Shown here: one piece after another, positions 21,901-47,637 of the stretch
How the letters are laid out: every line of letters begins with the position of its first letter
How positions within the stretch are numbered: the stretch's first letter is position 1
Origin: Pseudomonadota bacterium
Lineage (GTDB): Bacteria; Pseudomonadota; Alphaproteobacteria; SP197
NCBI GenBank assembly: GCA_039028155.1
Contig: JBCCIS010000033.1
Location: 1 to 59,174 of the forward strand
Direction: 5' to 3'
Length of the DNA stretch: 59,174 nt
Position numbers and translations under genes: made by a program
The notes under the pieces: generated by a model
The model's input: the letters and a program-made list of their open reading frames with translations, nothing else
Told to the model about the DNA's origin: nothing
The model's database searches: none

Positions 21901-22191
21901 GACGCGGTGAACGGCACCGGCTACGGCCTGACGCTCGGCATCCATACGCGCATCGACGAAACCGCGCGCCACATCGTGGAGCGCGCCCGCGTCGGCAACA
22001 TCTATGTCAACCGCAACATGATCGGCGCCATCGTCGGGTCGCAGCCGTTTGGCGGCGAGGGCTTGTCGGGGACCGGACCTAAAGCCGGCGGTCCGCATTA
22101 CCTCCACCGTTTCGCAACCGAACGCGTCGTCTCGACCGATACGACGGCGGCCGGTGGCAATGCGGCCCTAATGACGCTGGAAGAAGGCTAG
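18994..22191 (+). CDS. putA: Bifunctional proline dehydrogenase / P5C dehydrogenase PutA
   Basis: 1065 residues from TTG 18994, which has a GAGG site 8 bases upstream; an in-frame TTG at 18940 lacks one. The PRODH barrel (about 190-480) shows KLSALHPRYE, RLVKGAYWD and FQRLHGMGEALYEE; the aldehyde dehydrogenase part (about 540-1040) shows IAPWNFPLAIFTGQVS, AETGGQNAML and the catalytic cysteine in GQRCSALRVLF. Together they oxidise proline to glutamate, passing electrons to the quinone pool and NAD. No ribbon-helix-helix DNA-binding domain precedes PRODH, so this PutA is not its own repressor. A Crp-like regulator is divergent. Confidence 0.94.
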   Translation: MDNAQSRQSTTGVETDPLVFSQQPAPYDNLRHRLNAAYREDEAAAVDGLLELATFDEATRRRIRRRARELVAHVRARRQQTGGIDAFMSEYDLSSQEGIVLMCMAEALLRIPDADTADKLIRDKISVANWEEHLGGSDSLFVNASTWGLLLTGRVVNLDRTWRDDIARNIGKLITRAGEPIIRQAMTQAMRIMGRQFVMGRTIDEALERARDSENRGYRHSYDMLGEAARTMADADGYMAAYEKAIVRVGASTNEQDEFAKPSISVKLSALHPRYELAQADRIMAELAPRLLELSRLARQNGIALTVDAEEADRLDLSLDVFAWVAADDSLKDWDGLGLAVQAYQKRAIHLIDWLAQLATDQRRRLPIRLVKGAYWDTEIKRTQEQGLDGYPVFTRKPSTDVSYIACATKLLGQPKVFYPQFATHNAQSLATILTLAEGRRDFEFQRLHGMGEALYEEIIGDDKLGLSCRVYAPVGSHEHLLAYLVRRLLENGANTSFVNRIVDDDLPLDIMVVDPADQVRHAEPRAHPAIPLPADLFGPERKNARGIDLADREVLVTLARDMEAAAARPFSAAPIVNGRAVQGAERVITDPADRRRDVGTVVDSSEADMEAALASAHKAAPGWSATPADERAACLERAADLLEANMAEAMAIAAREAGKTLVDGVAEVREAVDFCRYYAQRARMDFSGDAVLPGPTGERNVIRLAGRGVFLCIAPWNFPLAIFTGQVSAALAAGNAVLAKPAEQTSVMGAFAVRLLHQAGIPTDVLHLLPGDGAAIGGRLVGDSRIAGVCFTGSTETAHIINRTLAERDGPIVPLIAETGGQNAMLVDSSALPEQVVADVIRSAVNSAGQRCSALRVLFVQRDVADHVITMLTGAMEELQIGDPGLIATDVGPVIDDEAKAMLEAHAERMDREARLLFRATLPQACSHGTFVAPRAYEIGSLDRLQREVFGPILHVVRFASDDLDKVIDAVNGTGYGLTLGIHTRIDETARHIVERARVGNIYVNRNMIGAIVGSQPFGGEGLSGTGPKAGGPHYLHRFATERVVSTDTTAAGGNAALMTLEEG

Positions 22192-22215: not shown

Positions 22216-22320
22216 GCCAGCCCACTTCCCCGCACGGCCACCCATGGCACCCTACTCGGGGTGGCCTCGGCGAAAACGCCTCTCGGCGTACTGCCCCGGA
22301 GGCGGGGGGAGTGGGATGGC
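22216..22320. repeat. Intergenic palindromic repeat, copy A
   Basis: Outer arms at 22216-22233 and 22301-22320 are near-complementary. An inner dyad GGCCACCC/GGGTGGCC lies at 22236-22243 and 22259-22266, and a small hairpin GGCG-AAAA-CGCC at 22269-22280. A 15-base core, CGGCCACCCATGGCA (22235-22249), is identical to copy B at 45924-45938, and the outer arms are similar too (CCAGCCC.CT). It fills the gap between convergent putA and the LpxR-like gene, so it may also end both transcripts. It resembles mobile REP-type palindromes. Confidence 0.7.
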
Positions 22321-45874: not shown

Positions 45875-45906
45875 GCAACGGCGAGGTGTGTGTCTCGTCG
45901 ACACCA

Positions 45907-45974
45907 CCAGCCCGCTCTCCTCCCGGCCACCCATGGCAGCATCCTCGGGGGGGCCGGGAGGGGGAGCGGGCTGG
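45907..45974. repeat. Intergenic palindromic repeat, copy B
   Basis: A 68-base element with arms at 45907-45928 and 45952-45974 that pair over 11 and 8 bp around a small internal mismatch, enclosing a 23-base loop region. The 15-base core CGGCCACCCATGGCA (45924-45938) is identical to copy A near 22.24 kb, and the CTCGGGG segment and outer CCAGCCC arms are shared. It sits in the gap between the FemAB-like gene and the 3' end of the TPP enzyme gene. No coding potential. It looks like a REP-type palindromic family of this genome. Confidence 0.75.
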
Positions 45975-46002
45975 CGCCGATACCGCGTGCGCGCGGATTG
46001 AC

Positions 46003-47637
46003 CTATTCCACAAGCGGGCCGGATGCGGAGATATCACGGATATCGGTGAGGACGTGGATCAGGCAGGCACCGTTGTGTTCGACGGCGGCACCGAAGGCCG
46101 GACCGAACTCGGCCGTCGTGCGCACGGTCCACACCGCCGCGCCATACCCTTTGCCCAGGGCCGCGAAGTCGGGGCTTACCATGTCGACACCCTCATAGTT
46201 GCCTGCGCCCGCATAGCGGTGCTGGTGCATCTTGATGGTGCCGTAGGTCGCGTTATCGACGACGATCACGATGACGGGGAGGTCGTACTGAACGGCCGTC
46301 GCGATCTCCTGGCCGGTCATCAGGAAGCCGCCGTCGCCGGCAAAGGCGACGACCTTGGCATGCGGCTTGGCAAGCTGCGCGCCGACCGCCGCCGGCACGC
46401 CATAGCCCATGGCGCCGGCCATGGGGCCGGCTTGACTGTCGGGAAAACGATGGCGCACGTAACGGTGCAGCCAGGTCGCGAAGTTGCCGGCGTCGTTGGT
46501 CAGCACGTGATCGGTATCGGCCAGGCGCTTTTCGATGTGGCGCATGACATCGGCCATATCGACAGCACCCAAGGCTTTGGGCGAACTGACTTGGAAACCC
46601 TCGAAATTGACCCGCAAGCCTTCCTGCCAGAGAACGCGCGCTTCGTCGGGTGTCGTCACGCGGCTGGCAAGGCCCTGGAGGACCGATCCGACATCGGCGG
46701 CGATCTGCAGGCCGGCGCCCGTATTCGCGAGGACATCGGCGTCGGGGTGAATGTGGATCATGGGTTTGCCGGTATGGAGCAGACGGTAGTCATCGGACGT
46801 GACCGCATCCATGCGGCTGCCCGCGACGATGACCAGGTCCGCTTCGTCCCAGGCCCGCTTCAGATGCTGCGGGCGGCCCAAACCGAACAGACCGACAAAG
46901 GCCGGGTGGTCGTTATTGATGGCGTCCTGGCAGCGGAACGCCGTCACCACCGCCGCGCCGGACGCCGTCGCCAAGGCGGCGAGTTTGGCGGTCGCCGCCT
47001 CGGCTTTGACGATCTCCCCGGCGATGATCAGGACACGTTCTGCCTCGTCGATCATCGACGCGGCCATGTCCAGGACCTCGGCCGGCGCGGCCGCAATGGC
47101 GCGGGGCGCGGGTTCGGGGATGGTGACATCACCGGCATCCGCCTCTGTCACGTCCTCGGGCAGGACGACAATCACGGGGCCGGGCCGGCCGGCCATGGCA
47201 AGCGCCAGCGCGTGGGCGGTGACCTGCGCGACATCCTCGGGCCCTGCCGGTTCCAGGACTGCCTTGGTCATCGACCCGAAGACCTGGCGATAGTCCATCT
47301 TTTGAAAGGACTCGTGGTCGAATTCGTTGCGTGGCACTTGGCCGATGAAGAGCACCAGCGGGATCGAGTCCTGGTCAGCGGTGTGCACGCCGATCGAGGC
47401 GTTGGTCGCGCCGGGGCCGCGGCGGACAAAGGCGCAGCCGGGCCGCCGGCCGATCTTGGCATAGGCGTTGGCCGCAAAGCTTGCGCCGGATTCGTGGCGG
47501 TTCACGACCAGGCGGATGGCGTTGGCGTTCTTCCGCAGGCCCTCCAGCACCGCCAGGTAGCTTTCGCCGGGCACACAAAACACCGTCTCCACGCCGTGAC
47601 TGACCAGCGTAGCAACCAATGCGTCGCCGCCATTCAT
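46003..47637 (-). CDS. Thiamine-diphosphate-dependent enzyme (acetolactate synthase-like)
   Basis: 544 residues. The N-terminal pyrimidine domain has the catalytic glutamate E49 in NRHESGASFAANAYAK; the central domain follows; and the C-terminal PP domain has the metal motif GDGGFLMTGQEIATAV with VDNATYGTIKMHQHR. The family includes acetolactate synthase, benzoylformate decarboxylase and others. There is no small regulatory subunit gene next to it, so it is unlikely to be the main IlvB. A RidA-family gene lies 3 bases upstream in the same operon, hinting at chemistry with enamine intermediates. Exact reaction unknown. Confidence 0.85.
   Translation of the reverse strand: MNGGDALVATLVSHGVETVFCVPGESYLAVLEGLRKNANAIRLVVNRHESGASFAANAYAKIGRRPGCAFVRRGPGATNASIGVHTADQDSIPLVLFIGQVPRNEFDHESFQKMDYRQVFGSMTKAVLEPAGPEDVAQVTAHALALAMAGRPGPVIVVLPEDVTEADAGDVTIPEPAPRAIAAAPAEVLDMAASMIDEAERVLIIAGEIVKAEAATAKLAALATASGAAVVTAFRCQDAINNDHPAFVGLFGLGRPQHLKRAWDEADLVIVAGSRMDAVTSDDYRLLHTGKPMIHIHPDADVLANTGAGLQIAADVGSVLQGLASRVTTPDEARVLWQEGLRVNFEGFQVSSPKALGAVDMADVMRHIEKRLADTDHVLTNDAGNFATWLHRYVRHRFPDSQAGPMAGAMGYGVPAAVGAQLAKPHAKVVAFAGDGGFLMTGQEIATAVQYDLPVIVIVVDNATYGTIKMHQHRYAGAGNYEGVDMVSPDFAALGKGYGAAVWTVRTTAEFGPAFGAAVEHNGACLIHVLTDIRDISASGPLVE

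Follow-up and report, generated by a model that had tools for sequence, protein, structure and literature searches.

What kind of element is the hairpin at positions 45907 to 45974, and does the core that it shares with a second hairpin of the window (the whole stretch of 59,174 nucleotides analyzed here) mark an RNA, a protein-binding site, or a mobile repeat? The sequence-only reading had described a palindromic family under selection on both sequence and fold, and had proposed RNA-seq to see whether it ends transcripts. The features at this locus are as follows.

45907 to 45974, plus strand: copy B, a stem-loop (P2) in its short form of 68 bp, from fold, family alignment, and covariance-model match.
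45924 to 45944, plus strand: conserved core CGGCCACCCATGGCAGCATCC, part stem and part loop, from pattern search and alignment.
45889 to 46002, no strand assigned: 114-bp segment that the sister species G001 lacks at the orthologous position, consisting of the hairpin and degenerate outer parts, from sister-species comparison.
46003 to 46005, minus strand: TAG stop of the neighboring gene (46003 to 47637, minus strand), at the right junction and 28 nt from the hairpin, from sequence.

Copy B folds with a minimum free energy of -57.5 kcal/mol (z -6.25), which was equaled in 0 of 200 shuffles, and the arm lengths reported earlier were borne out, the left arm having 22 nt and the right arm 23 nt with one bulged base included. 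The core had been assigned to the loop; this holds mainly for ATGGCAGCATCCTC, which forms the open loop, whereas some of the core takes part in pairing in the minimum free energy structure. An exact core, CGGCCACCCATGGCA, occurs at only two places in the window, 22235 and 45924, and with up to three mismatches at seven, a number within chance (13 of 100 shuffles). No Rfam family reached its gathering cutoff in a search of the window, in agreement with the view that no named family fits, and the sub-threshold matches of a permissive Rfam search were mostly to microRNA hairpins.

The second exact core belongs to copy A, which sits between convergent genes ending at 22191 (plus strand) and 22354 (minus strand).

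22217 to 22319, plus strand: copy A, form R, the same stem-loop with a hairpin inserted in its right arm, from fold and family extraction; the site is empty in G001.
22267 to 22300, plus strand: P3, the extra hairpin within copy A, 34 nt, from fold and pattern search.

This insertion is what makes copy B the cleaner form, as had been remarked.

In the source genome (G000; 5.31 Mb, 118 contigs, 97% complete), a 17-mer of the core was found at 77 places with at most two mismatches, compared to one place for the backwards pattern, and the chance GC-rich similarity that the earlier reading had named as a refutation does not account for the family. A covariance model built from 18 copies gave 105 matches in G000, with both strands of the palindrome counted. 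We extracted 78 distinct copies, a count that leaves out L336, L337, and L340 (P3-bearing or degenerate) and the half elements L338, L339, and L342. They comprise 38 short copies (S), 14 whose right arm holds P3 (R, including copy A), and 26 whose left arm holds its reverse complement (L). At up to three mismatches P3 was detected at 41 places, 39 of which fit the 40 extracted P3 copies; we rejected P3 as an independent mobile hairpin, as all 41 places belong to copies (two being L336 and L337). Core-less deletion derivatives were seen in G000 (L239, L249, L338, L339, and L342) and in the MAG PL25a (L085 and L140), some of which retain both outer ends. Among copies the arms covary, with 17 compensating cells compared to 6.5 in shuffles (0 of 500 shuffles reached 17), and further pair types in the arms showed no excess (310 of 500 shuffles). 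This covariation could reflect selection, arm-to-arm templating, or ectopic gene conversion.

The copies are placed at the ends of genes. With genes predicted by a home-made codon-model caller trained on the window, and hairpin edges good to ~3 nt, 39 of the 78 copies lie between tandem, 29 between convergent, and 3 between divergent genes, 1 lies within a predicted gene, and 6 are at contig edges. The distance from gene stop to hairpin has a median of 24 nt (quartiles 21 and 29; 97 gene ends), compared to 103 nt from hairpin to gene starts (45 ends), and 75 of 98 listed stops are 17 to 32 nt from the hairpin and 8 are closer than 16 nt. Convergent placement is in excess (29 of 71 classified copies versus 8 of 53 neighbor pairs in the window; p 0.003), and stops beside elements are more often TAG than those of other genes in the same loci (63/98 versus 57/151; Fisher p 5e-5). 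TAG is also common as a stop at large, at 18 of 54 predicted window genes and the 57 of 151 just given, possibly because elements renew stops as TAG. In the window, 27 of 188 noncoding TAs belong to stop codons, from which it appears that the copies are unevenly spread over the permitted TAs. Elsewhere the spacing is looser: the median is 34 nt in PL25a (59 ends; a contig edge adjoins 38 of the 66 copies), 30 nt in G197 (9 ends), 45 nt in G210 (8), and 36 nt in other genomes (14), and on two annotated plasmids neighboring genes end ~28 to 58 nt from the match. By hand count, 27 of 59 listed gene ends in PL25a take their stop from the TAG or TAA at the terminus of the element.

Such placement would fit a host-functional 3'-end element, that is, a bidirectional transcription barrier or an mRNA 3' stabilizer just past the terminating ribosome, kept by selection. 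The spacing of 20 to 30 nt after stops, the excess of convergent pairs, the strength of the hairpin, and the compensating arm changes all favor it. The idea that the element ends transcripts nevertheless found no support in what the letters predict. At copy B, no T tract of the intrinsic-terminator type follows a GC hairpin between 45760 and 46060, and over the family the core is oriented with and against the transcription of tandem genes at a ratio of 20:19. In addition, arm mismatches read on the transcript strand comprised 17 wobble-compatible G.U and 39 incompatible A.C (counted in the 22 copies between tandem genes among 37 short copies examined, in cells that are not independent), which speaks against selection at the RNA level.

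Comparison with G001, which is of the same genus, showed that many sites are polymorphic. Both flanks fell within one G001 locus for 24 of the 78 copies, 19 of them filled in both species and 5 without a G001 core (sites e10, e41, e47, e61, and e66); as these loci, e10 excepted, were chosen for holding G001 copies, sharing is over-represented. Thirteen further copies matched G001 on one side or unjoined, and 37 had no such match. We queried 12 of the latter with joined flanks, of which four failed on both-side resolution and eight were resolved: e16 was filled, e6, e7, e34, e51, e56, and e57 were contiguous (empty), and e42 held other sequence. In total, 20 of 32 compared sites are filled in both species and 12 lack a copy in G001, including both window copies (e10 is copy B and e51 copy A). 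Exact junctions, at a TA or a stop codon, were found at five of the twelve: filled and empty sites differ exactly at TA in e34, e6, and e56, and in e10 and e51 the right junction is exact at the stop codon, with the left one imprecise, maybe owing to an element remnant in G001. Site e66, where G001 retains part of the left arm, is a deletion, and e41, e47, e61, e7, and e57 are replacements or have no clear junction. Deletion may or does account for some of the empty sites, as gain and loss are not polarized by an outgroup. The core differed at 15 positions in 19 pairs of 19 nt (hand count) and flanks were 84 to 97% identical, so that the core diverges less than its surroundings, a comparison biased by the copies having been found by their core.

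The comparison also revealed that the stem-loop turns in place. Relative to the flanks, the core is inverted at 12 of the 20 shared sites (e5, e20, e22, e24, e28, e37, e38, e45, e52, e55, e65, and e70) and has the same orientation at 8, a split indistinguishable from randomized orientation (p 0.50). Alignments were inspected for e5, e20, e24, e37, and e65, and the remaining seven inversions were called by script; both genomes are incomplete and multi-contig, and single inversions may therefore be assembly errors. Where both species have P3 (seven sites), we found four whole-element inversions, one inversion of the core alone (e55, where it turns L into R), and two unchanged sites. P3 was present in one species only at e9, e23, and e45. 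Hairpin-associated minute inversions are also known from plastid spacers, for which PMC2903610 cites Kelchner and Wendel 1996.

A search across alphaproteobacteria had been suggested with a covariance model; the model was run on G000, and across the class the core was traced by pattern, with a patchy outcome. With at most two mismatches the core was found in 5 of 61 genomes (G000, 70 places; G001, 67; G012, 3; G009, 1; and G057, 1, doubtful) and had no place in the other 56; with at most one mismatch it was found in 4 of 289 genomes of the class (G000; G197, 9 places; G210, 13; and G101, one doubtful place). A scan of named genomes returned at least 120 stretches, most of them from the MAGs PL25a_bin.68 (Kiloniellales) and PL23b_bin.48. 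Also among the matches listed were Rhodospirillaceae and Minwuia MAGs, Qipengyuania citrea (Sphingomonadales), Sphingobium lactosutens, Tistlia consotensis (Rhodospirillales), Neoroseomonas eburnea (Acetobacterales), a Rhizobiaceae MAG (Hyphomicrobiales), and a Chromatiaceae MAG whose match may reflect a binning error. The scattered copies thus span at least four named alphaproteobacterial orders. Three of 72,556 plasmid records, all from sphingomonads, contained the core, and phage records and viral contigs (the latter searched for exact matches) contained none; the source genome and its near relatives may be missing from some of the collections scanned. In the JANQLT and JANQGO assemblies, many MAG contigs stop no more than some tens of bases from the core; these repeats break short-read assemblies. 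No description of the family was found in the open-license literature, where the core occurred only as 12-mer fragments in three unrelated papers.

Copies of other lineages vary in their surroundings. L253 and L258 (G197) carry a different hairpin of ~80 nt in the right arm, which implies that other lineages have gained nested hairpins independently. In L181 (Sphingobium lactosutens), an unrelated hairpin partly replaces the left stem arm, and in L265 (G210) a short tandem array of arm-related units of ~30 nt adjoins a copy. On the sphingomonad plasmids, L361 and L362 have small hairpins and GTTTGGAA/TTCAAAC-like ends flanking the stem-loop and no TAGAGC ends, and all three plasmid copies (L361 to L363) have a more variable core.

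Set against these data, a 3'-end function of the host seems unlikely. The lower divergence of the core between species, in copies found by that core, would favor it, and the following count against it: the lack of a terminator-type T run at copy B, the balanced orientation and the mismatches in the arms, the inversion of the core at shared sites, the sister-species sites without a copy, and the patchiness among genomes. A recognition site at the DNA level, a cruciform or the binding site of a nucleoid protein that the host keeps regardless of orientation, is favored by a core conserved in both orientations with no RNA signature and by a stem-loop common to several orders despite different ends. 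We nonetheless regard a site of this kind as quite improbable, given that copies are polymorphic between sister species and that most genomes tested lack the core.

The ends of the element provided a further clue. From one terminal TA to the other, the best-preserved short copies measure 128 bp, and their stem-loop lies between degenerate inverted ends TAGAGCRTTTTCCG; like TA-type MITEs, they are thus short elements with terminal inverted repeats. With at most one mismatch TAGAGCRTTTTCCG occurs at 15 places in G000, compared to 1 for the backwards control, and 11 of the 15 are at copies by coordinates. In G000 the spacing of end pairs is 128 bp at C9 and C11, 127 bp at C34, and 161 bp at the P3-bearing copy of C40. 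In PL25a (69 loci, 458 kb), a search that allowed up to two mismatches found 31 end pairs, with a length of 128 bp in 23, 127 bp in 4, 120 and 136 bp in 1 each, and 67 bp in 2 that lack the core. The G000 ends are degenerate yet detectable: a TA lies 18 to 34 nt outside the stem on 100 of 153 sides (30/151, 23/151, and 39/150 at three control offsets), and the TA-anchored match to the 12-nt end averages 5.62, compared to 3.00, 2.74, and 2.87 at control offsets. Such TA-flanked inverted ends are not known as a feature of REPs. The outer segments are also enriched in GANTC, the CcrM methylation motif, on 42 of 101 sides in PL25a (controls, 6/98 and 5/93) and 18 of 153 in G000 (controls, 7/152, 4/151, and 5/150); neither window copy contains it, nor does the conserved core. 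Side hairpins were rejected as a general feature of G000, where the outer 32-nt segments fold like controls (mean z -0.34 left and -0.24 right versus -0.15 and -0.16; p 0.28 and 0.33), and single copies of other lineages seem to carry them.

Searches for a mobilizing enzyme covered two profiles. PF01797 (Y1_Tnp) had no match in G000, with matches in 5 of 14 genomes as a control for the same profile, and PF13358 (DDE_3) had none in G000, G001, G197, or G210. PL25a has one DDE_3 gene, read by the caller as two pieces, and no matching ends flank it. This split IS630-type transposase gene, at L360, directly follows the TAG stop of an alaS-like gene, which we take to be alaS. Among the 69 PL25a loci (458 kb) there was no autonomous core-less end pair longer than 67 bp, and no related autonomous insertion sequence with the same ends was found with PF13358 in these five genomes. 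A possible lead to IS870/CTAG turned up no useful paper. Since neither the Y1 nor the DDE_3 search found a mobilizing enzyme, we assign the element to no named MITE family. A repeat of the REP/RAYT type, mobilized by a Y1 (HUH) transposase that acts on single-stranded hairpins, is highly improbable, for although the element is palindromic, extragenic, multicopy, and near stop codons, as REPs are (PMC12306157), PF01797 finds nothing in the 97% complete G000, the unit has 68 to 128 bp compared to 14 to 40 nt in E. coli (PMC12306157), and TA-flanked inverted ends are present.

Taken together, these data suggest that copy B is probably one of ~80 copies of an old, nonautonomous, palindromic, TA-inserting, MITE-like mobile element. 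A full short unit of 128 bp would consist of TA, the degenerate inverted end GAGCRTTTTCCG, the GC-rich stem with the core, the other inverted end, and TA. It would spread by transposition, with most insertions at the ends of genes; the target would often be a stop-codon TA, in some cases one common to the overlapping stops of convergent genes. As the element begins with G, TA plus G would restore TAG as the stop, and the outer ~25 nt may hold the strong hairpin away from the terminating ribosome. The G000 copies would be old, their ends having decayed with the interior stem-loop retained, and the stem-loop would turn in place, most simply through hairpin- or cruciform-mediated exchange between the inverted arms. 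A factor acting in trans would presumably recognize the core. Against the MITE-like reading stand the lack of a transposase match to the profiles searched, the likelihood that some empty sites are deletions, and a stem-loop common across orders with ends that vary by lineage, which is unusual for the passive interior of a MITE. More speculatively, and with considerable doubt on our part, the stem-loop could itself be the active module of an alphaproteobacterial class of mobile palindromes. A trans-acting enzyme, neither Y1 nor IS630-type, would read the core and deliver the unit to stop codons with the gene stop kept, the same hairpin chemistry would flip the core, and lineages would have attached different ends and nested hairpins.

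A MITE-like element of this kind suggests how a mobile palindrome may settle cheaply in a compact genome, by landing in a stop-codon TA and supplying a new stop itself. Its many comparable sites would also allow the inversion rate of long hairpins in bacteria to be gauged, and its tight, symmetric placement after stops would otherwise invite annotation as a "terminator" or "regulatory RNA."

Among known systems, the Correia/NEMIS, RUP, and ERIC MITEs come close: in PMC2229807 they are described as shorter than 200 bp, with inverted ends, TA termini, a stem-loop interior, and many intergenic copies, all of which apply here. As in Correia, long and short forms are set apart by an internal insertion (PMC2229807). 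Unlike the elements so described, ours is GC-rich rather than A+T-rich and concentrated at gene stops, its stem-loop is common across orders with varying ends, it inverts in place, and no partner insertion sequence was found. The CIR repeats of Caulobacter and Brucella, likened here by description only, are likewise alphaproteobacterial and intergenic with TA termini and stem-loops, and are described with an exposed GANTC motif (PMC2229807), which is enriched here in the outer segments and absent from the window copies and the core. Enterobacterial REP/BIME sequences, as described in PMC12306157, are also extragenic palindromes in many copies near stop codons, but our element is longer, has TA ends, and has no Y1 transposase in G000. 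REPs are further reported there to stall ribosomes within 15 nt of the stop (PMC12306157), whereas 90 of our 98 listed hairpins begin at least 16 nt past it, outside that range. Finally, the in-place turning resembles the hairpin-associated minute inversions of plastid spacers, in which, according to PMC2903610, a loop between inverted arms flips recurrently between close relatives; those are single plastid sites, whereas the inversions here affect a family of bacterial repeats that are dispersed and have a conserved core.
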